From contig NZ_CP014579.1 in the NCBI RefSeq assembly GCF_001634365.1, forward strand, positions 1,054,001-1,118,000: a stretch of DNA of 64,000 bases, written 5' to 3'. Positions 15,448 to 50,324 of this stretch are shown one piece after another (positions within the stretch are counted from its first letter, which is position 1; each line of letters begins with the position of its first letter). Made by a program: the position numbers and the translations under genes. The DNA is from Paraburkholderia phytofirmans OLGA172 (GTDB lineage: Bacteria; Pseudomonadota; Gammaproteobacteria; Burkholderiales; Burkholderiaceae). Under the pieces are notes generated by a model. The model was not told the origin of the DNA. It searched no databases and was given only the letters and a program-made list of their open reading frames with translations.

Positions 15448-15474
15448 ATCTCGATGACCTTTTCTCGCGCGGCG

Positions 15475-25708: not shown

Positions 25709-26503
25709 ATGAATGCTGACGCCATTGTGATGACAAAGCTGCGCGATACGTTTAGCCATGTCGAATTTGCTGGCAGTCTGGATGAATGTCTGGGCGAACT
25801 GGCATTGAGGGCAGGCGAGATGCTTAATGCGGGATGCGCGATCGCAATGTTGAGCGAACGGCAGGTGGAGGAGATCGGCTTGCGTCCGGGGACGGAATTT
25901 GGCGATGTGCCGGACAGGCCATTTGAAATGGCCGACGCTCAAGGATCCATGCATCCCGGTTATGACGCTTCGGTGCCGGGCGAGGATGTGGAGTGCGGGA
26001 TCATTCCCGCAGGCATTGCCGCGGATACCCGAACGGGAAAACGCATGTTTTCGGCCATCGTGATGCATGGAAAAGTCATCGGTGTCGTTCGTGCCTACCA
26101 GCCACAACACCGGCATTGCTTCAGCGCCGATGACCTGCAATTGTTCGCCATTCTGACGCTTGTCATTACGAAGTCGATTCAGGTGATTCAGTTGCAAAAC
26201 ATTCTGAGGTCACGCTTTACGCAGATGGCGTTGACGCGATCTGGGGAGAAGACCATTGGGGAAATTGTGGCGGAATCAGCCCAGACACCCAATCAGATGG
26301 CGCGGATTCTGGCCAAATCGTTTTACCGGGAAATGATCGGTGCGGGATTCAATTTCAATCAGATTATTTTCGCGGCGTCGGAAGTGATTTCAGAGTTGAC
26401 CGACAACATGCGCAAGCACCGCGATGCGTACAAACGCCGCGTCGCCCACACCGAAGTGCGAGAGGGTAGGCCGAGCCAGTCCGGACAACCCGAGGTTGTC
26501 TGA
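25709..26503 (+). CDS. GAF-domain protein at the head of the polyketide cluster
   Basis: 264 aa. Residues ~20-165 look like a GAF sensor domain (FAGSLDECLGELALRAGEMLNAGCAIAML ... TGKRMFSAIVMHGKVIGVVRAYQ ... FSADDLQLFAILTLVITKSIQ), which usually binds a small ligand, nucleotide or haem. The ~90-aa C-terminal part (EIVAESAQTPNQMARILAKSF ... SEVISELTDNMRKHRDAYKRR) is helical and unrecognised; it may be DNA- or protein-binding. First gene of the co-directional cluster, 111 bp before the adenylation fragment. A regulatory or signal-sensing role is inferred. Confidence 0.65.
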   Translation: MNADAIVMTKLRDTFSHVEFAGSLDECLGELALRAGEMLNAGCAIAMLSERQVEEIGLRPGTEFGDVPDRPFEMADAQGSMHPGYDASVPGEDVECGIIPAGIAADTRTGKRMFSAIVMHGKVIGVVRAYQPQHRHCFSADDLQLFAILTLVITKSIQVIQLQNILRSRFTQMALTRSGEKTIGEIVAESAQTPNQMARILAKSFYREMIGAGFNFNQIIFAASEVISELTDNMRKHRDAYKRRVAHTEVREGRPSQSGQPEVV

Positions 26504-26614
26504 GGGCCGCACGCGCAGGGACGATTGTGGCGCGCAGGCGCGACGAACGGGGTAGGTGGAAGAAAAGCCACACGCTGGGTGCCATAGCGGTGTGGCGTAC
26601 GGGGGATGCTGATC

Positions 26615-27556
26615 ATGACTGTCAGACCTGACGTTGGCAAGTGGATGACCGATCATCATGTTGTCTGGATGGACGGCGACGAGCTGTTGTGCCGTGTCCC
26701 CTTCACAGGGGTTGACTGGACGATGCTCGAGGAGATGGTTTTACACGAGGCGCCAGTGGCCTGCGCGCACGAAGACGAGGCACAACGATCCGCAAGGCCG
26801 GCGCCTGCCGCTGTTAACCTGGTTCGGCAACCCGTGCACCGACGCTTCGAGGTGTACGCCCAACTGAATCCCGGCGCACGTGCCGTGAAGTTCAACCAGT
26901 CCGAACTCACCTATGGCGAACTGGACAGTCAGGCAGATGGACTGGCCGTTCTCCTGCAGGCCCAGGGACTGGGCCCCGGCGATCTGTGTGCCATCTGCAT
27001 GCAGGGATCGTTGGCGATGGTGCGCGCGATTCTGGCGGTGCTGAAAGCTGGCGGGGCCTGTTTGCCACTGGACCCGACGCTCCACGACGCGCGGATTGCA
27101 GCCACGCTCAGCGCTTCGAACGCAAGAACCGTGATCACCCAGGAAGCGTTCTCGGACCGGTTCGCCGGGACGAACGCGCAGATCATTTACTGCGGTGAGC
27201 AAACCGATGATTTGCCATGTTCATGGCCTCTGGATTGTCTGACTGAAGACGTTTCGCCGGCCTGCGCAATTTGCAGGTTTTCCGAGGTGGACTGTCCGGT
27301 CATCGTGGTGAAAGACCACGCAAACGTGATCGACGGGCTGGAGTCGATGCAAGAGATCAGCCCGATCGGCCAGGGCGATTCCCTATTGCAGAGCTCTGAT
27401 TACGCTTTTGACGCCAGCGTATGGGAATTTCTTTGGCCGCTGACCCACGGGGCGCGATTGGTGATTCTGCCGGCGCGGGAAAAGATGGATCTCGAGCGAA
27501 TACGGCAACTCATCGTTCAAGAGCGCATCACCGTCATGCACGTCAACTTACGATGA
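26615..27556 (+). CDS. Degenerate, truncated NRPS-type adenylation-domain protein
   Basis: 313 aa (an ATG at 26606 would add three). A ~70-aa unrecognised leader precedes an AMP-binding fold: core A1 (LTYGELDSQADGLA), A2 (LKAGGACLPLDPT), and A4-like FDASVWEFLWPLTHGARLVI. The ATP-binding A3 loop, normally TSGSTGxPKG, is replaced by CRFSEVDCPVIVVKDHANV, and the protein stops right after ITVMHVNL, before A5-A10 and any carrier protein. It therefore cannot be a normal acyl/amino-acid activating enzyme. The frame is nevertheless intact for more than 900 bp and ends only 13 bp before the megasynthase start, so it may have been kept for another role, or be a recent relic. Confidence 0.75.
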   Translation: MTVRPDVGKWMTDHHVVWMDGDELLCRVPFTGVDWTMLEEMVLHEAPVACAHEDEAQRSARPAPAAVNLVRQPVHRRFEVYAQLNPGARAVKFNQSELTYGELDSQADGLAVLLQAQGLGPGDLCAICMQGSLAMVRAILAVLKAGGACLPLDPTLHDARIAATLSASNARTVITQEAFSDRFAGTNAQIIYCGEQTDDLPCSWPLDCLTEDVSPACAICRFSEVDCPVIVVKDHANVIDGLESMQEISPIGQGDSLLQSSDYAFDASVWEFLWPLTHGARLVILPAREKMDLERIRQLIVQERITVMHVNLR

Positions 27557-27569
27557 AGAGGTTGGTCTC

Positions 27570-30500
27570 ATGAGAGCAGCTCGATTGAAATCTGTGCCGG
27601 TGGTGGCGATTACACCGTCGCATCGGCTGACACCCGGGATCGCGATTGGCGCGTGCAGGGCCGGGGCATCAGGCGTGCTGGACCTGGGCATCCGCAGGGA
27701 GTCGCCGGACATCAAGGCGGCGCTGGCCGAGTTGACCCGCGCGGCGGGTAGCGCGGAGCACTGGGGGATTCGCTGGGATACCCTGGGGGAAGCGTCGAAA
27801 GACCTCACACGCCTCGCGGAAATCGTCGGCTCGCTCGCGCCTGTACCCGTTCTGGTGCTGGCCGGCCTCACGGCCGAAGACGCCACGCGGGTCCACGAAG
27901 CCGCGAAGCGGCTAGGACGCGAAGTCATCCTGGAAGTGCACGATCTGGCTACGGCGCGTGCGGCACAGGCGGCGGGCTATGACGGACTCGTTGTCAAAGG
28001 GCATGAGTCTGGCGGACGGGTCAGTCCACATTCGTCGTTCATGTTGCTGCAAGAGTTTCATGGGCAACTCAGCATTCCCTACTGGATTCAAGGCGGCGTT
28101 GCCCTGCATAGTGCCGCATCGGCCGTGCTGGCGGGAGCCGCAGGCGTGGTTCTATGCGAGCAGTTGTGGTTGGCCGAAGAAGGGCCATTCACTACGGTCG
28201 AGTCGCGCACACAGTGGGGGCATCTCGATGGCAGTGAAACCTCGTTGATCGGCGCAACTGATGCGCTCTATCGGTTCTTTAGCCGCTCGGGTCGAGGCCG
28301 GCTGCGTGAGCTCGAAGTTGCGGTTGCCAAAGGGGAACCCTGGCAGGAGACCGTGGCGGACGGCCTGGCAGAACCCGACAATGGATTGATCGCCGTCGGA
28401 CAGGATATCGCGTTCGCGGCGCCTCTTGCCAGGCGCTATGGGACGGTTGGACGCGTTATCACCGCCGTTCGCGAAAGCATCGCTGAGTGCCTGGAAAGGG
28501 CGGCTGCGCAGACTCCCCTTGTACCGGGTTCAGCGCTTGCAACACTGCATGGAACACGTTTCCCGATTGTTCAAGGACCGATGACGCGGGTCAGCGACGT
28601 CGGATCCTTTGCAAAAGCCGTGGCCGACGGGGGCGCACTTCCGTTCATGGCGCTGGCCGTTCTGCGTGGCCCGCAGGTGCGTGCGATGCTGACCCGAACC
28701 AAGGAGCTGATCGGCGATCTGCCTTGGGGCGTAGGCATACTCGGCTTCATACCCCTCGAGTTACGCCAGCAGCAGCTCGACATCGTACGGGAGGTCAAGC
28801 CGCCATTCGCGATCATCGCGGGCGGTCGGCCTAGCCAGGCGCGCGAACTGGAGGACGTCGGTATTACCACGTATCTGCATGTACCTTCGCCGGGCTTACT
28901 GCGCGGCTTTCTGGCGGACGGCGCGCGCAGATTCGTGTTCGAGGGCAGCGAATGCGGCGGTCATACGGGCCCCCGCACCAGCTTTATCCTTTGGGAATCC
29001 GCGATCGAGATCCTGACGAGCGCCGACATCAAGGATCCAGAATCGGTTCAAGTCCTGTTTGCGGGTGGCATCCACGACGCGATGTCTGCGGCCATGGTGT
29101 CCGTGCTGGCCTCGCCCCTGGTCGCGCGCGGCATGAAGGTGGGCGTGCTCATGGGCACGGCTTATCTCTTCACCCATGAGATCGTCCGCGCCGGAGCGAT
29201 CGTAGAGGAGTTCCAGCAGCAGGCCGTCGATTGTCAGGAAACAGCGCTGTTGCAATCTGGCGTCGGAATTTACACGCGCTGCGCGCAGACGCCGTTCTGC
29301 GATGAGTTTGAAGGGGTGCGGCGCGAGCTCGTTCTGGCATCGAAGTCCGAAGACGAGACCTTGATGGCGCTGGAGTTGATGAACATCGGCAGGTTGCGCA
29401 TCGCAGCCAAGGGGATCGCGCACAACAGCGATCCCGCCTCCCAGAGTGGTGACGATCGCTACGTCAACGTCGATAGCGAAACCCAGCGTCGCGAAGGCAT
29501 GTACATGTTGGGCGAAGTGGCACGGCTAAGAAGTCGCACGTGCAGCATCGCCGAACTTCACGCTTCCGTATCGACGGGCAGCGAAGCACTGCTGAGGCAT
29601 CGCAAAGCGCGCAGCATACAGCTGCCTCCTCGGTCCCGTCGCGAGGATATCGCCATTGTCGGGATGGCTTGCCTGTTTCCTCGCGCGGAAGGACTGCGTG
29701 ACTATTGGCAAAACATTTTGCGGGGGGTGGACGCGATCCGGGAGGTGACTGACGATCGGTGGAGCGTAGCCGATCTGTTTGATCCAAAGCGCGGTACGCC
29801 GGACAAGGTCTATTCGAAGTGGGGCGGATTTGTCGACGATATCCAGTTTGATCCGCAGCGGTATGGGATTGCACCGGCGAGTCTGGCCTCCATCGAGCCT
29901 GTGCAACTTCTCGCGCTGGAGGTCGCAAGGCAGGCACTGGAAGACGCGGGATTCGATCGCCGCCCGTTCCCTCGTGAAAAGACGGCGACGATCTTCGCGG
30001 TAGGCGGGATGAACGACCTGGGCACGATCTTCAATTTTCGCACGCTCTTGCCTCAATACCTCGCCAAGGTGCCGGACCTTCCCGAGCAGACCCGCAAGCA
30101 CATCCTGGATGCGCTGTTCAGGGATGAACTGCCGAAATGGACCGAGGACACCTTCCCGGGCATCCTCGGTAACGTGGTCTCCGGTCGGGTAGCCAATCGC
30201 CTCGACCTGGGCGGAGCCAACTTTACGGTGGACGCTGCCTGTGCTGCGTCACTCGCGGCGCTCGATGCGGGCATCAGGCAGTTGCGCAACCACGATGCCG
30301 ATGTCGCGCTGGTGGGCGGAGTCGATGGTACAAACAGTCCAATCGGTTATATGTGTTTCGCGCAAACCCATGCTCTTTCGCCACGCGGACGCTCGAGACC
30401 TTTCGACGAGACCGCGGACGGTATTGCGATCAGCGAAGGGGTGGGGGCTGTGGTGCTCAAGCGCGTGAGCGATGCGGAGCGCGACGGTGACCGGATCTAC

Positions 30501-33500
30501 GCGGTCATCCGGGGAATCGGCAGCTCGAGCGACGGGCGCAACCGCAGCTTGACGGCACCTCATCCTCCCGGCCAGGTAACGGCCTTGAAGCGGGCGTACG
30601 CCGATGGCGACGTGGACCCCGCGACCGTCACGCTGATTGAAGCACACGGCACAGGCACAGCACTGGGCGACAAATCGGAGATCGAGTCACTCAACCTTGC
30701 CTTTGGCGAGGCATCGCTCGCGACGCAAGTTTGCGCGGTCGGGTCGGTGAAGTCGATGATCGGCCACACCAAGGTGGCGGCCGGCCTGGCAGGCCTGATC
30801 AAAGCCGCGCTTGCCCTCAAGCACCGTGTGTTGCCGCCGACGCTGGGCGTCGACAAGCCCGCGAGCGGGATCGATTTCGCCAGGTCGCCGTTTTACATCA
30901 ATACCGAGACGCGGCCATGGCTGCACGACGGCCGGAATCATCCGCGGCACTGCGGCGTCAGCGCGTTCGGCTTCGGCGGGACAAACTTCCATGCCGTGCT
31001 GGCGGAGTACACCGGGGCCTATCGTGACTCCGATGCGGTCGATCTGAATCCCCGTGACGGCGAAATCTTCGCGTTCGCGGGCGCCACCCGCGCCGAGATC
31101 GAAAGTGACGTGCGGCGTATGTTGCAAGGGCTGGAGCACGCGGAACAGATTGACCTCGCCCAGCTTGCGTATTCGCTTTACCGGGAGCAGCACGTCGTGC
31201 GGCGCGCAAATGGCGGGCAGCCTTGCCGGCTTACACTGCTGGCCGCTTCGGTCGTGGATCTCAAACAGAAGCTGTTACGCGTTCTCGAACTGCTGCCCAG
31301 GCACGCGGAGATTACGCAGCCGCCCGGTATCTACTATCGGGAAACAGCCGACAAGGCAGGCGGGGTCTGTTTCCTCTTTCCTGGACAAGGTTCGCAGCGT
31401 ATCAATATGCTGCGCGATCTGGCGGTGGCGCTGCCCGCACTGCACGAGTGCTTTGCAGATGACCGGGTCAGGCGCGGCGAAGACCCCAGCCAGCCGATAT
31501 CGCGCTTTATCTATCCACTGCCCGCTTTCAGCGACGCGGAGCGCGAGGCTCAGCAGCAGGCCCTGAATGCGACCGAAATTGCTCAGCCTGCGTTAGGCAT
31601 GGTCGAAATGGCGGCGTTCCAGGTGCTCACTGGCTACGGTTTGCGTCCCGACTTTGTCGCAGGTCACAGCTACGGTGAATATGTCGCGCTGTGCGCCGCG
31701 GGAGCGATCACGTATGACGACCTGCTGCACCTGTCGCGGTTCCGCGGGCGGCTGTCTGCGAGCGCGCCACCGGGAGCGATGGCGGCGCTCGATGGCGACG
31801 GTGAGCAGGTGGCGGCCGCGATCGCCCAGCACGGTCTTGAGGTGAGCATTGCCAATCTGAACGCACCGGACCAGACCATCATCGCCGGAAAGACCGAGGC
31901 GATCGACGCGGCGGTGACGTGCTTGAGTCAAGCGTCGCTGCGTGTCAAGAAGCTGCCCGTGAGCGCTGCATTTCATTGCGAAATCATGGCCGGCGCGCGC
32001 GACACGCTGGCGGGTGAACTGGCAACGGTCGAGTTCCGTTCGCCGACGATCCCTGTGTACAGCAACACCACTTGCCGCCCCTATCCACAGACGAGCGATG
32101 AGGTGCGCGCGCTCCTCGCGAAGCACATTGCGGAGCCTGTCAGGTTCAGGGACGAAATTGACGCACTCTACGAAGCTGGCGCCCGGGTGTTCATCGAATG
32201 TGGTCCCGGCCTTGTGCTAGGTGGGTTGGTCGACCGTATCCTGGCCGACAGAACGCACACGACCCTGGCTATCGACGCACCGGGTCGACCCGGTTGGCTG
32301 CAACTCGCGCAATTGCTGACCCAGGCTGTGGCGATCGGGCTCCCGGTGCGGCTTGACACGTGGTTCGCCGGTCGCGGCCTGGTTGAATGTAGTCCGGAGG
32401 AGGTCTTTGCCGAGGCGGGCAAGCGGGCTGCCCCAGGACCACTGGTGTGGCGAGTCAACGCGGCTCGCGCACAACCATGGCACGGACCCCAACGAAAGGC
32501 GGCGCAACCTCGCAAAGCTCCGGGCGTGACGGAAATTGCCGCACCAGTGGTCGAAGCCCGTCCTTCCCGCACGGCGGAGTCACCCGTCGAAGCCCGTCCT
32601 TCCCGCACGGCGGAGTCACCCGTCGAAGCCCCCAAGCCAACGTTGATAGCGACTCGACACCTGGAGAGTCCATCCATCAGCGACAGGAGAAACGCAATGA
32701 AAGCAGATACTGTATCAAGCGACGGGCCAATGGCGACTGGCGCCGGCCCCCAACCTGCAGGCGCCCGCTGCTCGGAGTCCGAGTTCGCGCAGATCCAGTA
32801 CGGTGTCGGGCGGCTCCTCGACCTGCAATGCGAGCAGCAGCAGAGCCTGCGCCATTTTCTGGATTTCCAGGCACAGCTGATCGGGGTCCAACTGCTGCAC
32901 TCGCCGCAGCACGTGGGGCAACCCATGGCGATACCTGTTCAGGTGAGCGCAGCGAATCTCGCGCCCCCTCCGCGTGCACAGGCGGAGGCTGTCCCTTCCG
33001 TGGCTCCGATGATCCTCAGTGCGGCTCCGCCCACCCCGGTATTGCCCAAACAGTTGGTCGCTTCCAGTACGAGTGAGCCGACTCTGGAGTTCGCGGGTTC
33101 CATCGAGGCCCCCGAACCCGTGGCCGCGCCGCTCGAAAGCGGGCCCGCTGCGACGCGTAGCAATGGCAGCCTGCCGCCGAGCCATGCTTCGGCTGCCGAA
33201 TTCAAGGCTGACCTGCTAAGCACGGTATCGGAACGCACGGGATATCCTGCCGACATGCTGGATCTCGACGCACATATGGAGGCCGACCTCGGCATCGATT
33301 CCATCAAGCGGATCGAGATTTTCAGTGGCCTCACGAGCAAATACAACCTGCTTGGCGAGCGCAACGAAGAAGCGGTCATCGAGGAGCTGTCGGGGCTCAA
33401 GACCCTGAACGAGGTTATGGGGTGGTACGAGCAGTTACTGGGCGGCGCAGTTGCCGCTGAGCTGGGAGTGATGTCCCCAAAAAAAGCTCAGACTCCACTG

Positions 33501-35162: not shown

Positions 35163-36388
35163 ACACTTTCGCCAAGCCGGTTCTCACCCACTTCTGGCCG
35201 GCACAAGTTGCCAAGCCCGTGGCACAGCGCATTACCCTGGAAGTCAGCGCCTATGCGTTGGCGATGGGTTACTGCAAGACCCACGACATTCAGAACAAGG
35301 AGGGCGTTCGCCAGGCGATGCGCGACCTGAAGGACAAGTTCTCGAAGTACGCTGTATCGCCCGATCAGATCAGGCGGCGGCAACTCGTGTTCTTCCCGCG
35401 GATCAGGGACATTCGCTTCGTCGATGGCGAGCTGGTCCTCGCCGAACCGACTGCAGAGAACAGGCACCTGCGGTTGCACTCATCCGATATGAAGGATCCC
35501 AAAGGGGCGAATATCCGGGAGCGTCATGAGAGTTATGGAAAGGTGGTCGGTACCTGCCTCGCCGAGATGTACGACGGCATCACCGCTGCGCCCGATGACA
35601 TGATCCACGTGACGAGTACCGGATACCTCGCGCCGAGTCCTGTGGAACGGATGGTCGCAAACAAGGAATGGTTCGATACGACGGTCACTCACAGCTATCA
35701 CATGGGCTGTTACGGCGCCTTTCCCGCCATCAGGATGGCGCACGGCTTTCTGTCGTCCTCGCACTTTGGGGCTACGCCGCCGAAGCAACGTGTGGACGTC
35801 GTCCATACCGAGCTTCTGTCGGCTCACCATAATCTCGAGGACTCCAGCGCGGAAAACATCGTGGCGATGACCCTGTTCGGCGATGGATTCATCAAGTATT
35901 CGGTCTGCTCCGACGAGTACGTGCGAGCGCGAGGACTCCGGGGCCTGAGAATCCTCGCCTTCCGGGAGAACCTGCTCCCGGACTCCGCTGACGACATGAC
36001 CGAAGTGCCTTCGTCGCACCAGTTCCAGATGACCCTGACGATCAGAGTGCCGATCGTCATCAAGCGCCACGTGCGCCGCTTCGTCATAGCGTTGCTGCAA
36101 AGCATCGGAATCGATTTCGAACGCGACAAGCATTCGCTCGTGTTCGCGATTCATCCGGGAGGACCGAGGATCGTCGAGCACATTCAGGACGAGCTTGGAC
36201 TGCGCGATGATCATGTCGTCATCAGCAAGGAAGTCTTCCGTGATAACGGCAACATGACCTCCGCCACGATCCCGCACATCCTCAAACGAATCGTGGAGGA
36301 GAAGGCGATTGCGCCGGGTACGCGTGTCGTATCGCTTGGTTTTGGGCCAGGCTTGACGGTGACCGGACTGGTTATGGAGAAAGTGTGA
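35159..36388 (+). CDS. Type III PKS / KAS III-like condensing enzyme
   Basis: 409 aa, starting with an ATGA overlap on the megasynthase stop. Thiolase fold with the Cys-His-Asn triad: Cys in SYHMGCYGAFPAIRMA, His in FAIHPGGPRIVEHI, Asn in DNGNMTSATIPHI; also TLFGDGFIKYSV and GFGPGLTVTGLVME at the end. The layout resembles the chalcone/stilbene/alkylresorcinol synthase family more than FabH. Such enzymes take an acyl thioester and extend it with malonyl units, often cyclising it to a resorcinol or pyrone. In Azotobacter, alkylresorcinols are made by passing chains from a type I synthase straight to a type III enzyme; the gene coupling here suggests something similar. Confidence 0.8.
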   Translation: MNTFAKPVLTHFWPAQVAKPVAQRITLEVSAYALAMGYCKTHDIQNKEGVRQAMRDLKDKFSKYAVSPDQIRRRQLVFFPRIRDIRFVDGELVLAEPTAENRHLRLHSSDMKDPKGANIRERHESYGKVVGTCLAEMYDGITAAPDDMIHVTSTGYLAPSPVERMVANKEWFDTTVTHSYHMGCYGAFPAIRMAHGFLSSSHFGATPPKQRVDVVHTELLSAHHNLEDSSAENIVAMTLFGDGFIKYSVCSDEYVRARGLRGLRILAFRENLLPDSADDMTEVPSSHQFQMTLTIRVPIVIKRHVRRFVIALLQSIGIDFERDKHSLVFAIHPGGPRIVEHIQDELGLRDDHVVISKEVFRDNGNMTSATIPHILKRIVEEKAIAPGTRVVSLGFGPGLTVTGLVMEKV

Positions 36389-38247: not shown

Positions 38248-38328
38248 TCGACGGGGCGGGTGGCGCGGAAATTTACGACGTCCGGGGATGTGCTTCGTCA
38301 AACACCCCAAACATCGAGGAAACGGAAA

Positions 38329-40313: not shown

Positions 40314-40334
40314 CGGCAAACGAACGAGGGAATC

Positions 40335-41078
40335 ATGAAGAGAATCCAGTACATCGTGCTTCTCCTGCTGAGCTTCCTGAGCTGCGCGAGCGCTCACGCG
40401 GCGCTTACCCCGCGGGACATTCTGAAGGCGGCCGATGAGGCGCGTGGCAACGTGGCAGGGGTGGCGTGGGAAGTGACGATCGAATCAACGGAAAATCAGC
40501 AGATCACGGACACTCTGAGGTATGACATCAAGGCCCGCGGTTTCAACATCTCTGGCCTGAGCCTTGCCCCTCCGAAATATCGAGGCGAGAAGCTGCTCAT
40601 GCTCAGCACCAGCATGTGGTTTTACAAGCCGGGGCTTAGCAAGCCTGTGCCGATCTCGCAGCGGCAGAAGCTGATGGGCGACGCGGCGTACGGTGATATT
40701 GCGTCGACGAACTACGCAGAGGACTACGATGCAACCCAGCTTGCCGATGAAGCGGTGGAGGGTGAAGATTGTTACGTTTTCGATCTCAAGGCGAAGAGTG
40801 ACAATACCACTTACGACCGCATCAAATACTGGGTTTCAAAAAAGCGCCTGCTCGGCATCAAGGCGCAATATTTCACGGTGTCAGGGAAGGCATTCAAGTC
40901 ATCGACCATGGACTACGACAACGTCGTTCGTGTAGGTGGAGAAACTCGGCCGTTTATTTCCCGGATCACATTTCACGGGGAATTGATGAACGGGGAAGTC
41001 ACTTATCTGAATTTGCGCAATCCGCGCGTCGAACCTTTGCCAGATTACGTGTTCGACCTGAATCTGTTCATGCGATGA
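40335..41078 (+). CDS. LolA-like periplasmic outer-membrane lipid/lipoprotein-sorting protein
   Basis: 247 aa with a clear Sec signal peptide (YIVLLLLSFLSCASAHA, cleavage about residue 22). The mature part follows the pattern of COG2834-type sorting proteins: ILKAADEARG near the start, a long run of beta strands (LMLSTSMWFYKPGLSKPVPISQ; CYVFDLKAKS; RIKYWVSKKRLLGIKAQYFT) and a final strand ending YVFDLNLFMR. These proteins shuttle acylated cargo across the periplasm. It is 21 bp behind the permease gene, so it is the probable acceptor of whatever the ABC pair extracts; the likely cargo is the cluster's lipid. Confidence 0.82.
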   Translation: MKRIQYIVLLLLSFLSCASAHAALTPRDILKAADEARGNVAGVAWEVTIESTENQQITDTLRYDIKARGFNISGLSLAPPKYRGEKLLMLSTSMWFYKPGLSKPVPISQRQKLMGDAAYGDIASTNYAEDYDATQLADEAVEGEDCYVFDLKAKSDNTTYDRIKYWVSKKRLLGIKAQYFTVSGKAFKSSTMDYDNVVRVGGETRPFISRITFHGELMNGEVTYLNLRNPRVEPLPDYVFDLNLFMR

Positions 41079-41169
41079 AGAAGTGTTTGCCAAATGTGAA
41101 TATCACGTTCGTTTCGATTGCTTGCCACGCCATCACGGCCGCAAGCTAAAGAAATACGAGGAAAATGGG

Positions 41170-44100
41170 ATGAATACGCCAATTGCGATAGTGGGAATGG
41201 CATGCCGGTTTCCTGGCGGTGTGTGCAATCCTGACGATTACTGGAATCTTCTGGTCGCAGAGAAGGATGCAGTAACCGAGGTACCTCCAGAGCGCTTCGG
41301 TACCGAGTTTTACCAGCATCCAGCAAAGCGCGAGCCCGGCAAGAGCTACACATTTTCGGCAGGCGTGCTCGACGATGTCATGGGTTTCGATGCGGAATTT
41401 TTTGGCATCTCGCCGCGCGAAGCGGCGCAAATGGACCCGCAGCAGCGACTCCTGCTCGAACTCGCCTGGGAGACGTTTGAGGACGCCGGCCGCTTGCCAG
41501 GCAAGATGGCCGGCAGCAATTGCGCGGTGTTCGTCGGTGTTTCGAGTCAGGACTATGGCGACCGCAATGTGGACGACCTGAGCGTCATCGACGCCTATTC
41601 GGCGACTGGCAATACGTCCAGCATTGTCTCGAACCGGATTTCGTACCTGTTCGACCTGCGTGGTCCGAGCATGTCGATCGACACGGCCTGTTCCTCCTCG
41701 CTGGTGGCGGTGCATCAGGCTTGCCGGTCGATCTGGTCGGGTGAAGCGGACGCAGCGCTTGCCGGTGGCGTCAATCTGTTGCTCCACCCGTTCGCTTTCA
41801 TCGGGTTTTCGAAGGCGTCGATGCTTTCGCCAACGGGCCGTTGCCGCGCTTTCGATGCTGCGGGGGACGGCTACGTACGTGCGGAAGGCGGCGCGCTCAT
41901 CCTGCTGAAATCCCTCGAGAAGGCTATCGCCGACGGCGATTCGGTCCATGCCGTGATCGTCTCGTCCGGCGTCAATTCGGACGGTCACTCGCAAGGCGGG
42001 ATCAATGTGCCCGCCACGGCGACCCAGGCGCGCCTGCTGGAAGACGTCTACGCGCGTGCGGGTATCGATCCAGCCTATGTCTCGTACATCGAGGCGCACG
42101 GCACGGGCACCGCGGTCGGCGATCCGGTCGAAGCTCGCGCGCTGAGCGAGGTCATCGGGCGGCGACGCGCGCCAGGCAGCCCGTTGCTGATCGGCTCGGC
42201 GAAGAGCAATCTGGGACACCTCGAGCCCGCGTCTGGCATGGCCGGCCTGCTGAAGGCGATTCTCTGCCTCAAACACCGCGCCGTTCCGGCCTCGATCCAT
42301 TTCAGGAATCCCAATCCCAACATCGACTTTGCCGGGGGCGGACTGCAGGTGGTCGATCGCTATACGCCGCTCGAGGCCCACGCGCATCCATTGACGATAG
42401 GCATCAATTCGTTTGGATTCGGGGGGACGAATGCGCATGTGCTGATACGCGAGGCTGACCCAGCGTCGCGCGCGGGGCATCCTGGGTTGGTCCCGCAGGA
42501 GGGTGCACAACCGCTGCCGCTCATGCTAAGCGCGCGTTCTCCGAAGGCGTTGCATGCACTGGCCGCCGCGTATAAGACTCGTCTCGAGCGAGGCGATCCG
42601 TGGTCAGCGCTTGCGCTCGGCGCCGCACGCAAACGGGAATGGCTGAGTCATCGCGCCATCGTCAGTCCCGCAGCATTGGAAGACGGCGTGGCAGCGCTCG
42701 ACCAGCTGTCCCAGGGCGAAACGACATCCTCGATCGTCACCGGGGAGGCGTTGGACCCGAACGGAAAGGTCGCGCTGGTCTTCTCTGGCAACGGCTCGCA
42801 ATGGGCTGGCATGGGGCAACGTCTGCTCGAAGAGGACGACAACTTCCGCGCAGCACTGACCGAACTCGACATACTGTGGCGAGCGGACGGCAGTCCTTCC
42901 CTCGTCGATGAACTGCGCGCTGGCGTCACGGCCGAACGGCTTGCCGACACTGATTGTGCCCAGCCACTGCTTTTCGCGCTCCAGTTTGGCGTCGTGCGCG
43001 TCATGCAGTCACGCGGCCTGCAATACGATGCATGTTTCGGCCACAGCGTCGGCGAGGTCGCTGCTGCCTGGGCATCCGGAGCTTTGACGATCGAGCAGGC
43101 GGTGCACGTCATCAAGATTCGCAGCGGCGCACAGGCGAAAACCCGTGGTACAGGGAGAATGGCGGCGGCAGGTCTGAGTGAGGCGGCGGCGCGCCAGTTG
43201 ATCGACACACTGGGTCTTGCGGATGAACTTGAAATTGCGGGCATCAACAGCCCGCAGGCAGTCACGCTTGTTGGCGCTCTGCAGGCACTGGAGGCAGTCC
43301 AACAGGTCCTTCTCTCAGGAGGGCAATTTTTCCAGATTCTCGATCTCGACTACGCATTTCACAGCGACCGCATGGACGCAATTCAGGGACTCGTGCTCGA
43401 CGGTCTCGACGATCTTCGTCCGCATGATACGCAGCGGGTGTTCGCGTCATCGGTGACGGGCGGCCTGCTATCCGGACACGCGCTCGATGCGTCGTACTGG
43501 TGGAGAAACATCCGCGAGCCGGTTCGCTTCGACGAAGCGACTCGCAGCCTGATCGACGCTGGCGTGCGGCTTTTCGTCGAAGTGGGCCCGCATCCGATCC
43601 TGCGCACCTACATGACGCACACGATCGAACAGTCGAAGGTGAAAGGCCGTCCACTCCCCACGCTCATGCGCAACCAGGACAGCGCCGCGGATCTGCATCT
43701 CGCGATCCACGCAGCTTTCGCGAACGGCGCCAGCATCGACCTCGATAAGGGTTTCCCTGTCAGTGCTGGCAGCATGAACTGCTCGTTGCCGACCTATCCG
43801 TGGCAACGGGAGCATTACATGTCGCCGCCGACCCCAGAAGGCTACAACCTCGTCAACCGGCGCCGCGAACATCCACTGCTCGGCTATCCACTGAAAGATC
43901 ATGCGGCTGCCTGGGAAAATCAGATCGACCCGGTCAGGATGCCCGTGCTCGCAGACCACGAAGTCGATGGCGCGGCTACCTTTCCGGGTGCGGGATATGC
44001 AGAAATGGCACTAGCGGCGGCGCGGATTCACTTCGGCACGGTGAAATGCGCGGTTGAAAACCTTGAAATCCGGACACCGGTCGTATTTCAGCCGCAACAT

Positions 44101-47100
44101 GCCAAGCTGTTCCGCTTCACACTCGACACGCACACCGCTGGCTTTACGATTGAGACGCGCACGCGCATGTCGGACGAGCCCTGGGCGCTCAATGTAACCG
44201 GTCGCCTGCTGGCAGGCGGTCCAGACTCCGCTGGCGCGCCAAATGTTGCGGCCGATGAGCTGGCGCAGTTCGACACGTACCCTCGGATCGATGCTGCGTC
44301 GCTCTATGAGGGCGCAGCGTCGATTGGGTTGCACTACGGTGATGCGTTCCGGTGGGTGCAATCGTTGCGCCTGGCGGGCGACGCCGCGCTCGGCGAGCTC
44401 GCCGCACCGCCCGCGCTGCAGGGCGCGCTGCAGGATTATGTCTTCCACCCGGCAGCGATGGATAGCGGTTTTCATCCGTTGTTCGCTCTCGTCGCGAACC
44501 AGGACAGCACTGACGAGGGGCATCCCGCGTACGTTCCGGTACACATGGGACGCATCGACTTTTTCGGCGGCAACGCGCCGGCTCGCGTACTCGTGCGAAT
44601 CGAGCGGCGCAGCCCTCATTCCCTCGTCGCCTCATTCACCTATCTTGACCAGGACGCAGGCGTCATTGCAAGGATCAGCGCCTGCCGCTTCCGCCGTGTG
44701 GACTTCACTGGCCGTCACCGCCCCGAACCCGGGCGTTTCGTATTCGTCGCAGAGGCGCGACCGTACAACGGTGACGTTATCGCGGCCGGTTTGCCGGCTC
44801 CTGCAGTCCTGTTTGAGTCTGCCTCGGGCGCAGTGGCCGCAAAAGAAGATGCGCAACACCGCAATACGCATCTGACGCAGGTCTTGCCCCTTCTCGACGT
44901 GCTCGCCGCGGCTTATGCGCTGCGCGCTATCGAAGCGCTGAACATCATCGGCAGCACGTCGTTGCCAGCCACCCGGAACCAGCCGCTGCTCGAGCGTCTC
45001 GTCGCGATGCTCGTCGAGGACGGCGTGCTCGAGATCGTCGATGGACATGTTGAGCGCGGTCAGGAAGCGTTGCCGTCCATCGAAGACTTGTGGCGCGGCC
45101 TTCTCGCGCTCTCGCCTGGTCATGCCGCCGAGCTCGCGCTGATGGCGCGCTGCGGTGCAGCGTTGCCTGCCGTGCTGAGCAGCGAGGCGCAGGCAGATAC
45201 GGTGCTCCCTCCTGTTCGCAGTGATCTGGTCGATCATCTTTACGAGTCCTCGCCGAGCTGGTCACACGCCAATGCATTCGTGCGCGCGAGCCTCGAGGCA
45301 GCAGTCGACGCGTGGCGTGAGCCCCGTCGGCTGCGGGTGCTCGAAATCGCGACACCTGGCATAGGTGCATTTCACCCAGTCGCTGCGCATCTGCAGACCC
45401 GCTGCGATTATGCAATCGCAGCGGGCGTGGAGCAGCTAGGTACGATCGATGCGAGCAGCCATCCATACATTCGCACGGTTTCGCTGGAGCTCGGCGAGGA
45501 ACCGACGCTGGCGACCGAACCGGGGCGGCCCGCGCAGTATGACGTGGTGGTGATCAAAAACATGTTGCGTGCGAGTGCGCAACCGGCACGGCTGATACAG
45601 GCGGCACGCTCGTGGATGACGCCGGATGCGATCCTGCTGGTGAGCGAAAGCCAGCCGAGCCGCGTCTCGGACCTGGTATTTGGCCTCGACGCCAGCGCGT
45701 GGACGCACGAGCGCGCCGGACTGCTCAGCGCGAACCAGATCACGACGCTGCTGCATGGCCAGGGGCTTGAGGACCTGGTGCGTCATATGGAAGGTGACCT
45801 CGAGATCGAAGGTGCGCCGGTTGTGATCGCCGCGCGGCTACCTGCGAACGACGCGCTCGTGACACCCGAAGCAACCGTTGAGCCCCAATCGGCGCACTGG
45901 CTCGTCGTATTTGCCGGGGCAGCGCAGCAGCCGCTGGCGGATACCCTCGTGAATGCATTGCAGGCCGCCAGTCAGGTCGCGGCCAGCTGCACCCTCGAGG
46001 CTTTGGCCGACGAGCCGGCCCGGCTTGCTCGACCAATGGGTAACGGCACGCCTCGCATTGTGTTCATGGCGGCAACGGCAGATGCCGTACCGCACAACGC
46101 GGACGGTGCCGCGCTGATGGAGGCACAGGAAAGCACGTCGATTGCGCTCGCACGGCTCGTACGCACCATCATCGGCAGTGCGCCGGACGCGCATGCGAGC
46201 CTGTGGATCGTGACGAGCGGCGGCGCTCCGATCCTGGGCGAGACCGGCGATGCACTGGCAACCCGTCCCGAACAGGCCACGCTCTGGGGACTCGGGCGCG
46301 TGCTGATGAATGAGCATGCGGAACTGGGTTGCCGCCTCGTCGACGTCGAACCGGGCTGCGACGCACCAGAAGCGCTGCTCGTTCGCGAGCTGTTGTCACA
46401 GGAGAGCGAGGAGGAGGTACTGCTGACCTCGCGAGGCCGTTTCGTGTCGCGCATGGTGCCTGCCGCAACGGAGGATCTGCGCAAGACCCGTGCTCAGGCA
46501 GGTGCGCACGAGCGTCCAGCCGTGCTCGGGTTCGAGGCGCCCGGATCGTTGCGTAATCTTCAGTGGTTCGCGCTGAAGGAGCGCGAACTGGCGTCAAACG
46601 AAGTCGAGATTGAACCTGTTGCCGCGGGCCTTAACTTCCGCGACGTGATGTACGCGATGGGTTTGCTGTCCGACGAGGCGGTCGAAAATGGCTTTGCGGG
46701 GCCGACCATCGGGATGGAAGTCTCGGGGCGAATTGTGCGCGCCGGTCCGCAGGTGGACGGCTTCAAGGTCGGCGACGCGGTGCTGGGCTTTGCGCCCGCA
46801 TGCTTTGCGTCGCGTGTCAGGACACGTGCTACGGCGATTGTGATCAAGCCGGAGAGGTTGACTTTCGCGGAAGCAGCGACGATTCCGACGACCTTTTTAA
46901 CCGTGTACTACTCACTGCGCGAACTCGCCCGGCTGCGCCCCGGCGAGCGCGTGCTGGTGCATGGCGCGGCAGGGGGGGTCGGCATTGCGGCCGTCCAGAT
47001 CGCGAAACACTTGGGTGCCGAAGTCTACGCGACCGCAAGCAAGGAGAAGCGAGAGTTTGTCCGGCTGCTCGGCGCCGATCACGTATTCGATTCACGCAGC

Positions 47101-48768
47101 CTCGCTTTCGCCGACGAAATCCTGCATCGCACCGCAGGCGCAGGTGTCGACGTCGTTCTCAATTCGCTGGCTGGCGAGGCGATGGTCCGCAGTATCGATG
47201 TGCTGCGTCCGTTTGGCCGTTTTATCGAGCTAGGCAAGCGGGATTTCTACGAGAACACGCTGATTGGACTGCGGCCGTTTCGCAATAACATCAGCTACTT
47301 CGGCGTCGACGCAGACCAGTTGATGAGTGCACTGCCGCAACTGGCGGCGCGCCTGTTCGACGAGATCATGGACCTGGTCGCGCAAGGCGCGCTCCATCCG
47401 TTGCCTTACCGCACGTTCGCGGCTGAACATGCCGGGGACGCTTTCCGGTACATGCAACAGGCAAAGCAGGTCGGGAAGATACTGCTGACTTTCGATGCGG
47501 GCGTGCCGCCACCGCAAACGGCACCCGCCACCCCTCTGCGGCTCGACCCACACGCCGCTTATCTGGTTGTCGGCGGCACAAGCGGGCTGGGTTTTGCAAC
47601 AGCGCGCTGGTTTGTCGAAAAGGGCGCGCGGCATCTTGTGCTCGCGAGCCGTACCGCGAAACTCGCGCCGGAGCTTACTACCGAAGTTCAATACTGGACG
47701 GACGAGTTGGGGGTGGCGGTCACGCTCGCATCGTGCGATGTAACGGACGCGGCAGCGGTAGCGCAGCTCATCGAAAGAACTGACAAGGCGGTGGCGCCGC
47801 TCAAGGGCGTGGTGCATTCGGCGTTGAGCATTTCCGACGGCCTCGTTGCGAACCTCGACGATGCGCGCATGCGTACGGTGATGGCGCCCAAGGTGGCGGG
47901 CGCGTGGAATCTGCATCAGGCAACGCGCGGGCTGTCGCTTGACTTTTTCGTTGTGTACTCGTCGGCAACGACGTTCCTTGGAAATCCAGGGCAATCCAAT
48001 TATGTTGCCGCGAATGCATTCCTCGAATCGCTGGTTCTGTTGCGCCGTGCAGCAGGACAGCCGGCGTGCTTCATGGCATGGGGGCCTATCGATGATGTCG
48101 GTTTCTTGTCACGCAACAGGGAGACCCGCGATGCGCTTGAAGCGCGTATCGGTGGTCGTTCGATTACCTCGGGCGAAGCAATGGCCGCGCTGGAGCGCGT
48201 GCTGGTCGCGCAACGGGCGGGGGAGGCGGTGGTATGGCTAGAGTGGGAAGCGATTACGCGGGTGATTCCGTCAGCACGTTCCGAGCGCTACATCGAGATG
48301 CGCAAGCGCGAGTCTAACGACGCGCAACGCGCCGAGGGCCCGGGCCTGCGAGAGGACGTTCTCGCGCTGACGGTGACAGAAGCCCAGCAACTGGTTGCCG
48401 AGGCGTTGCGGGCTGAGATCGGGCGCATCCTGAACCTGTCGACGGCGAAGATCGAACTGGATCGATCGATCCTCGACATGGGGATGGATTCACTGATGGG
48501 TATGGAACTGCGCATGGCGATCGAGGAATGCTTCCAGGTCAAGCTGTCGGTCATGATGCTGACCGAGGGCGTCACCGTGAATTCGCTCGCGCAGAGAATC
48601 GTTGAGTTGATCCGGGGGGACGGCCAGGACAGTAGTCAGAAATCGGAACTGGAGCAGCAGGTCAGCGCCCTGGCGGCAACGCACGCGGTCGAGGTCAGTG
48701 CGGATGATGTCAGGGAAATGGCCGACCGTGCGATGCAACCCTCGCGGAAACAGGCATCCGGCCGGTAA
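41170..48768 (+). CDS. Reducing type I polyketide synthase: KS-AT-DH-(degenerate MT)-ER-KR-ACP
   Basis: ATG 41170 with GAGG 8 bases upstream; the 29 in-frame codons before it are not PKS-like. 2532 aa. KS (1-430; DTACSSS, Cys 174; EAHGTGT; SNLGHLEPASG), AT (about 530-850; GHSVGEVAAAW, Ser 626; YAFHS), DH (about 890-1180; LADHEVDGAATFPG = HxxxGxxxxP, His 930), a C-methyltransferase-like region (about 1250-1560) whose SAM motif reads LRVLEIATPGIGAF and seems broken, ER (about 1790-2100; HGAAGGVGIAA), KR (about 2130-2310; GGTSGLG, NYVAAN), ACP (about 2410-2485; MGMDSLMG, Ser 2441). The full reductive loop implies saturated chain building, used iteratively. There is no thioesterase; release is probably by the next gene's product. 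Confidence 0.92.
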   Translation: MNTPIAIVGMACRFPGGVCNPDDYWNLLVAEKDAVTEVPPERFGTEFYQHPAKREPGKSYTFSAGVLDDVMGFDAEFFGISPREAAQMDPQQRLLLELAWETFEDAGRLPGKMAGSNCAVFVGVSSQDYGDRNVDDLSVIDAYSATGNTSSIVSNRISYLFDLRGPSMSIDTACSSSLVAVHQACRSIWSGEADAALAGGVNLLLHPFAFIGFSKASMLSPTGRCRAFDAAGDGYVRAEGGALILLKSLEKAIADGDSVHAVIVSSGVNSDGHSQGGINVPATATQARLLEDVYARAGIDPAYVSYIEAHGTGTAVGDPVEARALSEVIGRRRAPGSPLLIGSAKSNLGHLEPASGMAGLLKAILCLKHRAVPASIHFRNPNPNIDFAGGGLQVVDRYTPLEAHAHPLTIGINSFGFGGTNAHVLIREADPASRAGHPGLVPQEGAQPLPLMLSARSPKALHALAAAYKTRLERGDPWSALALGAARKREWLSHRAIVSPAALEDGVAALDQLSQGETTSSIVTGEALDPNGKVALVFSGNGSQWAGMGQRLLEEDDNFRAALTELDILWRADGSPSLVDELRAGVTAERLADTDCAQPLLFALQFGVVRVMQSRGLQYDACFGHSVGEVAAAWASGALTIEQAVHVIKIRSGAQAKTRGTGRMAAAGLSEAAARQLIDTLGLADELEIAGINSPQAVTLVGALQALEAVQQVLLSGGQFFQILDLDYAFHSDRMDAIQGLVLDGLDDLRPHDTQRVFASSVTGGLLSGHALDASYWWRNIREPVRFDEATRSLIDAGVRLFVEVGPHPILRTYMTHTIEQSKVKGRPLPTLMRNQDSAADLHLAIHAAFANGASIDLDKGFPVSAGSMNCSLPTYPWQREHYMSPPTPEGYNLVNRRREHPLLGYPLKDHAAAWENQIDPVRMPVLADHEVDGAATFPGAGYAEMALAAARIHFGTVKCAVENLEIRTPVVFQPQHAKLFRFTLDTHTAGFTIETRTRMSDEPWALNVTGRLLAGGPDSAGAPNVAADELAQFDTYPRIDAASLYEGAASIGLHYGDAFRWVQSLRLAGDAALGELAAPPALQGALQDYVFHPAAMDSGFHPLFALVANQDSTDEGHPAYVPVHMGRIDFFGGNAPARVLVRIERRSPHSLVASFTYLDQDAGVIARISACRFRRVDFTGRHRPEPGRFVFVAEARPYNGDVIAAGLPAPAVLFESASGAVAAKEDAQHRNTHLTQVLPLLDVLAAAYALRAIEALNIIGSTSLPATRNQPLLERLVAMLVEDGVLEIVDGHVERGQEALPSIEDLWRGLLALSPGHAAELALMARCGAALPAVLSSEAQADTVLPPVRSDLVDHLYESSPSWSHANAFVRASLEAAVDAWREPRRLRVLEIATPGIGAFHPVAAHLQTRCDYAIAAGVEQLGTIDASSHPYIRTVSLELGEEPTLATEPGRPAQYDVVVIKNMLRASAQPARLIQAARSWMTPDAILLVSESQPSRVSDLVFGLDASAWTHERAGLLSANQITTLLHGQGLEDLVRHMEGDLEIEGAPVVIAARLPANDALVTPEATVEPQSAHWLVVFAGAAQQPLADTLVNALQAASQVAASCTLEALADEPARLARPMGNGTPRIVFMAATADAVPHNADGAALMEAQESTSIALARLVRTIIGSAPDAHASLWIVTSGGAPILGETGDALATRPEQATLWGLGRVLMNEHAELGCRLVDVEPGCDAPEALLVRELLSQESEEEVLLTSRGRFVSRMVPAATEDLRKTRAQAGAHERPAVLGFEAPGSLRNLQWFALKERELASNEVEIEPVAAGLNFRDVMYAMGLLSDEAVENGFAGPTIGMEVSGRIVRAGPQVDGFKVGDAVLGFAPACFASRVRTRATAIVIKPERLTFAEAATIPTTFLTVYYSLRELARLRPGERVLVHGAAGGVGIAAVQIAKHLGAEVYATASKEKREFVRLLGADHVFDSRSLAFADEILHRTAGAGVDVVLNSLAGEAMVRSIDVLRPFGRFIELGKRDFYENTLIGLRPFRNNISYFGVDADQLMSALPQLAARLFDEIMDLVAQGALHPLPYRTFAAEHAGDAFRYMQQAKQVGKILLTFDAGVPPPQTAPATPLRLDPHAAYLVVGGTSGLGFATARWFVEKGARHLVLASRTAKLAPELTTEVQYWTDELGVAVTLASCDVTDAAAVAQLIERTDKAVAPLKGVVHSALSISDGLVANLDDARMRTVMAPKVAGAWNLHQATRGLSLDFFVVYSSATTFLGNPGQSNYVAANAFLESLVLLRRAAGQPACFMAWGPIDDVGFLSRNRETRDALEARIGGRSITSGEAMAALERVLVAQRAGEAVVWLEWEAITRVIPSARSERYIEMRKRESNDAQRAEGPGLREDVLALTVTEAQQLVAEALRAEIGRILNLSTAKIELDRSILDMGMDSLMGMELRMAIEECFQVKLSVMMLTEGVTVNSLAQRIVELIRGDGQDSSQKSELEQQVSALAATHAVEVSADDVREMADRAMQPSRKQASGR

Positions 48769-48853
48769 ATGACGGCACGCTTACGTGCGTCAAGGTGGTG
48801 GCCGGCAATCGGTCATTAAATAAGGATGGCTAACAGATAGAAAGGAGCGGGAT

Positions 48854-50218
48854 ATGGGATTGGGTCAGCAATTCAGGCAACAGCTTGCCGCCAAGGCGCT
48901 CAAGCGCCAGCTCGAGCGTGTGGGCGACGATATCAGCGGGGTCACCCCGGTTGTGCATGAAGCACTGCGCTCCTCGCCATCGGGCCTGCGCTCGCCCGCG
49001 AATGGCTCCGTCGATTATGAGGCGCTGCGCCGTTTCGACACGATGCCCGGTTATCAGCAGGTGGCGATCATGCGGCAAATGCGGGAACAGCTTCATATCG
49101 AGTCGCCGTTTTTTCGCGTGCACGAAGGCAATGCGGGTGCGACGACGCGGATTGGCGAGAAGACCTACGTCAACTTCGCGAACTATAACTATCTCGGTCT
49201 CTCGGGTTCGCCCGTGGTTCTGGCCCGGGCGAAAGCTGCGATCGACCAGTACGGCACCTCCGCGTCGGCAAGTCGCATGGTCGCCGGAGAGCGGCCGATT
49301 CATGGCGAACTCGAGCGTGCACTAGCGAAGCTCTACGAGGTCGACGACTGTGTCGTATTTGTGAGTGGTCATGCAACGAATGTGACCGTTATTGGCTCGT
49401 TGTTCGGTCCGTCTGATCTGATCGTTCACGATTCGCTCTCGCACAACAGCGTCATACAAGGAGCGATACTGAGCGGTGCGAAGCGGCTCCCCTTTCCACA
49501 TAACGATTGGGCTGCGCTGGACGAATTGCTCACGCGCGTACGAGGCAACTATCAGCGTGTGCTGATTACGATTGAAGGGCTGTACAGCATGGACGGCGAC
49601 ATCCCCGATCTCGCCCGGTTCATCGAGATCAAGCGTCGCCATGCGGCGTTCCTGATGGTGGACGAGGCGCATTCGCTGGGTGTCCTGGGCGAAACCGGCA
49701 AAGGGGTGCGCGAGCATTTTGGTGTCGATGGGCGCGACGTCGACATCTGGATGGGCACGCTGAGCAAGACGCTTAGCGGTTGTGGCGGCTTTATCGCCGG
49801 CGCGCAGACACTCATCGATATCCTGCGCCATCTTGCGCCGGGCTTCATGTATAGCGTCGGCCTTGCGCCGGCGCTTGCCGCCGCTTCGCTCGCTTCGCTC
49901 GAGTGCATGCAATCTGAACCACAACGGGTCACCCAGCTTCGCGAGCGCGGCCAGCAGTTCCTGAAGGAAGCCCGGCGCGTCGGTTTGAACACAGGGACAA
50001 GTGCTGGATATGCGGTTATTCCGGTGATTACCGGAAGCTCGCTGAAGGCTGTTCAATGGTCGAACGCGCTCTTCGAACAGGGTATCAACGCTCAGCCGAT
50101 ATTTTATCCGGCGGTCGAAGAGAAGCTGGCGAGACTGCGATTTTTCATTTGTTCGACGCATACATCCGAGCACATTCGCGTCGTGATCGATGCGCTTGAG
50201 CGCATCGCTGGCGGCTAG
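48854..50218 (+). CDS. PLP-dependent alpha-oxoamine synthase (KBL/AONS/SPT family)
   Basis: 454 aa; AAAGGAG precedes the ATG by about 7 bases. Family hallmarks: NFANYNYLGLSG, YGTSASASRMVAGER, FVSGHATNVTVIGSL, LMVDEAHSLGVLG, and the PLP lysine in GTLSKTLSGCGGF (Lys 305). The ~85-residue N-terminal extension before the core is longer than in AONS. These enzymes join an amino acid to an acyl thioester with loss of CO2, as serine palmitoyltransferase does. Placed 85 bp after a PKS that lacks a thioesterase, it most likely releases the chain from the ACP as an amino-ketone (sphingoid-like). Substrate amino acid unknown. Confidence 0.9.
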   Translation: MGLGQQFRQQLAAKALKRQLERVGDDISGVTPVVHEALRSSPSGLRSPANGSVDYEALRRFDTMPGYQQVAIMRQMREQLHIESPFFRVHEGNAGATTRIGEKTYVNFANYNYLGLSGSPVVLARAKAAIDQYGTSASASRMVAGERPIHGELERALAKLYEVDDCVVFVSGHATNVTVIGSLFGPSDLIVHDSLSHNSVIQGAILSGAKRLPFPHNDWAALDELLTRVRGNYQRVLITIEGLYSMDGDIPDLARFIEIKRRHAAFLMVDEAHSLGVLGETGKGVREHFGVDGRDVDIWMGTLSKTLSGCGGFIAGAQTLIDILRHLAPGFMYSVGLAPALAAASLASLECMQSEPQRVTQLRERGQQFLKEARRVGLNTGTSAGYAVIPVITGSSLKAVQWSNALFEQGINAQPIFYPAVEEKLARLRFFICSTHTSEHIRVVIDALERIAGG

Positions 50219-50324
50219 GTGCGATAAGCACTTGGGTGATGCGAGGTCGACCAGGGGATGTGCAGTCGTCAGGCCAAACAGAATAAGCCGTACAAAGACC
50301 CGCATCACCTATGGGGATTCTTAT

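Follow-up and report, generated by a model that had tools for sequence, protein, structure and literature searches.

Ten co-directional genes in P. phytofirmans

In a 64,000-nucleotide stretch of the Paraburkholderia phytofirmans OLGA172 genome (8.57 Mb; contig NZ_CP014579.1, positions 1,054,001 to 1,118,000; hereafter the window), ten open reading frames (ORFs), g1 to g10, follow one another on the + strand between positions 25709 and 50218 (Table 1). An initial annotation had read them as one lipid/polyketide synthase (PKS) cluster, new in its full combination, that makes an amino- or resorcinol-type lipid and carries its own outer-membrane delivery module. The ORF list of the window places all ten where that annotation had them, in one direction and with three 4-base overlaps, at g3/g4, g4/g5 and g6/g7. 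Pfam and NCBIfam agree with its domain reading, except that the adenylation domain of g2 is only a half and that no Pfam family reaches the cut-off in g1; the families also support the reading as a lipid/polyketide operon that includes a LolA-like carrier and a Lol-like ABC pair.

Table 1 Features of the ten-gene cluster (positions in the window)
Gene and product	Position	Strand	Basis
g1, 264-aa protein, possible GAF-type sensor/regulator	25709..26503	+	GAF at E 0.099, below cut-off
g2, half adenylation domain	26606..27556	+	AMP-binding PF00501
g3, ArsA-type synthase, NMO(ER-like)-KS-AT-ACP-KR	27570..35162	+	Pfam; PfaA match; A. vinelandii homologue
g4, ArsB/ArsC-family type III PKS, Glu282 at cyclisation residue	35159..36388	+	Pfam, alignments
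g5, dehydratase + phosphopantetheinyl transferase, ArsD position	36385..38247	+	PS-DH + ACPS
g6, LolD-like ABC ATPase, likely start ~38329	38260..39066	+	Pfam; NCBIfam LolD 237 bits, cut-off 308
g7, LolC/E-like permease	39063..40313	+	Pfam FtsX; NCBIfam lolCE 74 bits, cut-off 362
g8, LolA-like periplasmic carrier	40335..41078	+	PF17131 LolA_like 117 bits, cut-off 30
g9, reducing PKS KS-AT-DH-ER-KR-ACP, RkpA/WcbR-like, likely start ~41170	41083..48768	+	Pfam, locus comparison, tree
g10, alpha-oxoamine synthase, RkpG/WcbT-like, BioF/SPT-like	48854..50218	+	Pfam, NCBIfam, locus comparison, tree

Chance ORFs are unlikely, because gene order is kept across genomes and the ratio of nonsynonymous to synonymous change (pN/pS) is 0.12–0.31 in eight genes compared with Burkholderia sp. 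lig30, the closest match. The values, calculated for all but g3 and g5 at dS 0.7–1.4, are 0.12 for g4, 0.14–0.20 for g6–g8, 0.21 for g10, 0.25 for g1 and g2, and 0.31 for g9. Both g6 and g9 probably start downstream of the beginning of their ORFs, the position for g9 being taken from the start of its lig30 homologue. Pfam gave no methyltransferase match between the DH and ER domains of g9.

The g3–g8 genes as an Azotobacter-type ars locus

In Azotobacter vinelandii, ArsA is a fatty acid synthase, alkylresorcinols and alkylpyrones are made by the type III PKSs ArsB and ArsC, and ArsD is a phosphopantetheinyl transferase (PPTase) (PMC4824345). Acyl groups can pass straight from the acyl carrier protein (ACP) of ArsA to ArsB or ArsC (PMC6274091). 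The window has the same order of ArsA-type synthase, type III PKS and dehydratase-PPTase as arsABCD (PMC4824345, PMC6274091, PMC10651043), and the three genes are adjacent. We scanned genome contigs with a type III PKS alignment and kept 80 loci of 116 confirmed relatives; homologues of g3, g4 and g5 occur together in 30 of them. In 23 of these 30 ars loci, including those of A. vinelandii, A. beijerinckii and A. chroococcum, homologues of the LolD/LolC/LolA-like trio g6–g8 lie downstream of g5. A contig end truncates one further locus (L016), and the trio was not seen in six from Methylocystis/Methylocystaceae and Beijerinckia (L026, L028, L030, L031, L034, L040), where L030 offers merely ~2 kb of sequence downstream of g5. 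By the families of its parts and their conserved order, g3–g8 is an Azotobacter-type ars operon.

The g3 protein is 57% identical to its counterpart in the A. vinelandii locus (L027) over 2548 aa. It also scores 1124 against the PfaA model (cut-off 1010). Tandem ACP domains are a feature of the Pfa synthases of polyunsaturated fatty acids; g3 has a single DSI motif and matches PP-binding once, weakly. A polyunsaturated fatty acid cluster was rejected on this single ACP motif and on the full-length collinearity with the A. vinelandii locus.

The window departs from A. vinelandii ars in several ways. It has one type III PKS where A. vinelandii has two, and a Glu where the Azotobacter ArsB and ArsC have Trp and Gly. 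It carries g1 and g2 upstream, an arrangement found only in Burkholderiales among the 30 ars loci, and g9–g10 downstream. The additional protein and the glycosyltransferase that come next in the A. vinelandii and M. niastensis loci are absent here. Orthologues of g1 precede nine of the 30 loci, exclusively in Burkholderiales. The g2 product (~316 aa) has a P-loop region that appears degenerate from the window sequence, and none of its 13 orthologues (219–358 aa) has a full adenylation domain. An amino-acid-activating role of g2 for g10 was rejected on this half domain in the window and the orthologues. Burkholderiales ars loci retain this half domain ahead of their ArsA-like gene.

A 390–465-aa protein and a glycosyltransferase-like protein follow the LolA-like gene in five loci (L015, L020, L021, L027, L036), which belong to Massilia, Pseudoduganella, Duganella, Azotobacter and an Oxalobacteraceae metagenome-assembled genome. 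The former has a weak porin-like match in L015 alone, and the glycosyltransferase is confirmed by Pfam in L015 and L027. Its place downstream of the trio hints that ars lipids may be glycosylated. In a tblastn search of plasmids with g4, two of 125 records matched at ~58–59%, from Beijerinckia and Methylosinus.

A remodelled ring-closing pocket in g4

The g4 protein falls in the ArsB/ArsC family with its Cys-His-Asn triad, and aligns at 559 bits to PDB chains 3vs8 and 3vs9, ArsC and its G284W form. Its position 282 is the site at which 3vs8 (Gly) and 3vs9 (Trp) differ, and here g4 carries Glu instead of the Trp found at position 281 of ArsB. The exchange W281G abolished resorcinol formation by ArsB and gave pyrone, while G284W lowered the pyrone and raised the resorcinol output of ArsC (PMC6274091). 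A plain resorcinol product is doubtful for g4, because the ArsB Trp is replaced by Glu together with other pocket changes. Glu282 thus weakens the label of alkylresorcinol synthase but leaves g4 within the ars family, to which ArsC with its Gly also belongs. Of the amino- or resorcinol-type lipid that had been proposed, the resorcinol half is therefore in doubt, and the amino-lipid half is plausible as a second product.

Glu282 is shared by the window, lig30, P. eburnea, P. bannensis and Paraburkholderia sp. Ac-20340; P. mimosarum has Trp. These residues come from a 39-row comparison of ORFs of 300–800 aa, from which A. vinelandii ArsC is missing because longer and shorter ORFs were skipped; its residue was taken from PDB 3vs8. 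Among 120 listed of 3642 database matches, residue 282 is Trp in 113, Glu in three, Met in three and Leu in one. All 113 Trp rows have C153, S154 and S367, and all seven non-Trp rows have Ser153. In a tree of 135 rows built without the four pocket columns, five changes are needed to account for the Trp label and one for the Glu label (SH-aLRT 99).

The changes in the Glu proteins are not confined to residue 282. Using 21 proteobacterial Trp rows that we selected from the 39, we found 168 near-invariant columns, 19 of which are altered in one or more of the five Glu sequences. Nine are altered in all five (118, 120, 153, 154, 235, 282, 296, 352 and 367), seven of them to one same residue across the Glu rows (the exceptions being 118 and 352). 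A stricter rule leaves columns 153, 154, 235, 282 and 367, along with the mostly gapped column 97. The pocket residues of g4 are S153, T154, E282 and T367. Position 367 lies two residues past the catalytic Asn365 and presumably corresponds to Ser338 of chalcone synthase; likewise, we take 153/154 to be the Thr132/Ser133 positions. Thr132 and Ser338 belong to the aldol-switch network. A published study argues against a universal sequence for this switch (PMC7217186). In these comparisons the ring-closing pocket of g4 is remodelled, and the data are silent on what g4 makes. The Glu282 clade offers a natural test of the determinants of ring closure in the ArsB/ArsC family.

Other type III enzymes also lack the ArsB-type Trp and carry Leu or Met (L034, a second copy in Beijerinckia; P0050, P0070, P0073 and P0103); residue 153 is changed in each.

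The g9–g10 genes as a capsule-type pair

The last two genes encode a reducing mono-modular PKS and an alpha-oxoamine synthase (AOS), and have kin in capsule loci. Relatives of g10 with at least 68% identity occur in 46 of 144 genomes of the genus, the window genome included (53 of 144 pass E 1e-100); across the family, sampled evenly, 77 of 398 genomes pass E 1e-150. We inspected 15 contexts outside ars loci, picked among the best matches (L100–L108, L128–L133). In 13 of these, the AOS stands beside a g9-like PKS and a short-chain dehydrogenase/reductase (SDR), together with an LTA-synthase-like gene and genes for capsule synthesis or Kps-type export. The two exceptions are Beijerinckia L103 and Methylocystis L104, where no PKS was found in the stretch inspected. 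On pSymB of S. meliloti, the PKS, AOS, SDR and a capsule gene are consecutive. The K-antigen synthesis genes include rkpA and rkpG-J (PMC7902896, PMC3908369), which the pSymB row appears to fit, with each gene assigned by order and family. The AOS counterpart among the Burkholderia wcb capsule genes is wcbT.

Identity to the pSymB pair is 35% for g9 and 53% for g10, and to nine Burkholderiaceae capsule loci 56–66% and 68–74%, respectively. In a PKS tree of 15 rows, the window and lig30 form a group (100/100) that joins two capsule-locus PKSs at 88/89, a support under the starred level; with S. meliloti and Pseudomonas as outgroups, both of them long branches, the two nest within the Burkholderiaceae capsule PKSs. 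In the AOS tree (18 rows), the window and lig30 pair at 99/100 and the deeper order is open. From this kinship, g9–g10 is a capsule-type PKS/AOS pair, and the initial annotation's reading of the whole set as a new assembly is not supported in that form. A single unprecedented assembly of all ten genes was rejected, since the locus comparisons split the set into two known modules.

The pair shares its reducing PKS and AOS with rkp-1 (rkpA, rkpG-J) and wcb (PMC3908369, PMC7902896); in the window it stands without adjoining SDR, LTA-synthase-like, deacetylase, GNAT or capsule genes and is joined to the ars operon. Neither the SDR nor the LTA-synthase-like partner lies beside g9–g10 in the window or lig30. 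Neither Capsule_synth PF05159 nor the LTA-synthase-like partner was found in the whole genomes of the two strains, and a capsule locus was rejected on these absences. A capsule-lipid pair without capsule genes would make a simple system for learning the products of RkpA/RkpG-type enzymes. Fungal synthases of fumonisin and sphinganine analogues also release a reducing PKS chain with an oxoamine synthase, a likeness to g9–g10 by description and not by sequence comparison.

The junction of the two modules

The g8–g9 gap is ~91 bp, given that g9 probably starts at ~41170, and the g9–g10 gap is 85 bp; the two genera have the same join. In lig30 all ten genes occur in the same order, followed by the same SRAP-family gene as in the window. 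Each of g1–g8 is nearer to lig30 than to the same-genus P. eburnea, which suggests that the gene set has moved between genera. P. eburnea has the same site without g9–g10, because its left-hand neighbours also occur in the window and lig30: genes for an AraC regulator, a TibC-like glycosyltransferase, an AIDA-type adhesin and a protein of 539 aa. A MerR regulator on this side is common to the window and lig30 only.

Within the genus, g4 was found in five of 144 genomes, four of which also carry g10 kin, and the two are linked in the window genome only. It was likewise found in five of the 398 family genomes, four with g10 kin; as only the four best first-look candidates were scored per genome, some genomes may have been missed. 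The synteny of all ten genes, put forward earlier as a check, is complete in lig30, and the relatives of g9–g10 are mostly unlinked to ars. The scattering of homologues that was to refute a single cluster is accordingly found for g9–g10 and not for g3–g8, whose linkage is conserved. The claimed novelty survives in part: the full combination is rare, and g3–g8 is the known Azotobacter-type locus. A literature search, mostly outside subscription papers, returned no description of an ars locus combined with the capsule pair, and, by title, nothing on such a locus among papers on alkylresorcinol with Burkholderia. Each module is known; as far as the literature searched goes, the way they are joined and the type of g4 pocket are new variants.

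Proposed delivery by the Lol-like trio

The g8 protein matches the Pfam LolA_like family (Table 1). In NCBIfam terms g6–g8 would work like the Lol lipoprotein system in mode only, their scores being below the equivalog level. In an algU mutant of A. vinelandii during encystment, the ABC ATPase Avin_29510, ArsA (Avin_29560), ArsB and ArsC all had a fold change of 0 (PMC10651043, Table 3). The route of ars-type lipids to the outer membrane was not described in the literature searched, and a trio that stands next to ars genes in most loci is a concrete, testable candidate for it. The aryl polyene cluster of E. coli (PMC8253772) and the arcuflavin cluster of Azoarcus (PMC3949708) are likewise envelope lipid clusters with a LolA-like carrier gene. 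They differ from the window in their stand-alone (type II) ketosynthase enzymes, and the E. coli cluster has an RND-type exporter instead of a LolCD-like ABC pair.

A proposed two-product envelope-lipid operon and its alternatives

We favour the view that an Azotobacter-type ars operon (g3–g8) has been joined by a capsule-type lipid pair (g9–g10) into a two-product envelope-lipid operon, to which we assign a probability of roughly 0.6. The families of the parts, the g3–g8 order, the capsule kinship of g9–g10 and the junction in two genera can be read directly from the comparisons above; the products and delivery we infer from the families, and co-transcription from the gene spacing. The ArsA-like g3 and the dehydratase/PPTase g5 would build a long acyl chain, which g4 would accept, extend with malonyl-CoA and close into a ring. 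The outcome would probably be an alkylpyrone or some other compound rather than a simple alkylresorcinol, because Glu282 replaces the ArsB Trp, with S153, T154 and T367. Activated by the PPTase of g5, g9 would build a second, reduced chain, and g10 would free this chain by condensing it decarboxylatively with an amino acid, yielding a long-chain alpha-amino ketone (a sphingoid-like base); no ketone-reducing SDR was found in the cluster. Transport through the periplasm to the outer membrane would fall to the trio, at least for the ars-type lipid; that the trio also exports the g9–g10 lipid is our guess.

Several observations weigh against this view. Linkage of ars with g9–g10 was found in just two of the 398 family genomes, those of P. 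phytofirmans and lig30, and g4 and g10 kin lie on separate contigs in P. eburnea, P. bannensis and Ac-20340. The case for a single operon comes from spacing only. Residues 153 and 282 are not strictly coupled, as ArsC and two Azotobacter second copies combine Gly282 with Cys153, and the pocket changes cannot name a product because a published study argues against a universal aldol-switch sequence (PMC7217186). The loci compared do not include those of P0001 and P0002, the metagenome relatives closest to g4. All three trio proteins score under their NCBIfam cut-offs (Table 1; LolA3, 19 against 83). The trio is tied to the ars lipid only through co-location and one proteomics table on co-regulation, and Avin_29510 was matched to the g6 orthologue by gene order and not by locus tag. 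The absence of PF05159 alone is not decisive for the loss of capsule synthesis, because the family was also not found in the genomes of P. mimosarum and Ac-20340, and the AOS locus of the latter has Kps-type export genes.

The cluster might instead be an ordinary alkylresorcinol/alkylpyrone operon, in which g4 makes resorcinols despite Glu282 and g9–g10 are a chance neighbour with their own transcription and an unrelated lipid; this is possible, but we think it unlikely. The mostly unlinked relatives of g9–g10 fit such a neighbour, but the join is tight and the same in both genera, and purifying selection acts on all eight of the genes tested. Pattern scans for promoters and terminators over 36000–51700 stayed at chance level (3 and 10 matches against 3.5 and 12.4 in shuffles), and a break between g8 and g9 is compatible with the terminator result. 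As for the resorcinol, the want of a universal aldol-switch sequence (PMC7217186) leaves room for it, but W281G alone abolishes resorcinol formation by ArsB (PMC6274091).

Two further alternatives keep the modules functionally connected. In one, which we hold to be improbable, the cluster makes one hybrid amino-polyketide lipid, in which g4 starts from the g9 chain or the amino-ketone of g10 is linked to the ars-type lipid. The shared operon and PPTase, and the use of acyl-ACP by ars type III enzymes (PMC6274091), would allow this; however, g3–g4–g5 are complete on their own in other genomes, the PKS and AOS pair stands on its own in capsule loci, and the cluster has no gene for joining the two products. 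In the other, slightly more improbable still, g9–g10 continue to supply the lipid anchor or carrier for a polysaccharide or glycan of the cell surface whose synthesis is encoded at another place in the genome, as their capsule kinship and the TibC-like glycosyltransferase and adhesin adjoining the cluster would suit; against this, Capsule_synth and the LTA-synthase-like partner were not found in the window genome or lig30.

Returning to the two-product operon, a stronger form of it is that the g4 clade (S153, T154, E282, T367) forms a functional class of its own, the third after ArsB and ArsC, with a product not yet assigned to the family, which is moreover co-delivered to the outer membrane with the capsule-derived sphingoid-like lipid through one Lol-type route. 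We consider this combination doubtful. If true, a capsule-lipid module would have been turned into a free outer-membrane amino-lipid pathway.

Neighbouring genes

The SRAP-family gene lies directly 3′ of g10, at 50643–51449 (+), and its lig30 counterpart is 60% identical. On the left, 14677–24719 (−) holds the AraC regulator, the TibC-like glycosyltransferase, the AIDA-type adhesin (1576 aa) and the 539-aa protein, which has no Pfam match. A gene with a pro-kumamolisin activation domain is found beside an AraC-type regulator at 54902–57034 (−). Elsewhere in the genome, the main chromosome carries three ketosynthase domains in a run (G000:C1:3505851-3510004), possibly a type II cluster such as an aryl polyene cluster.

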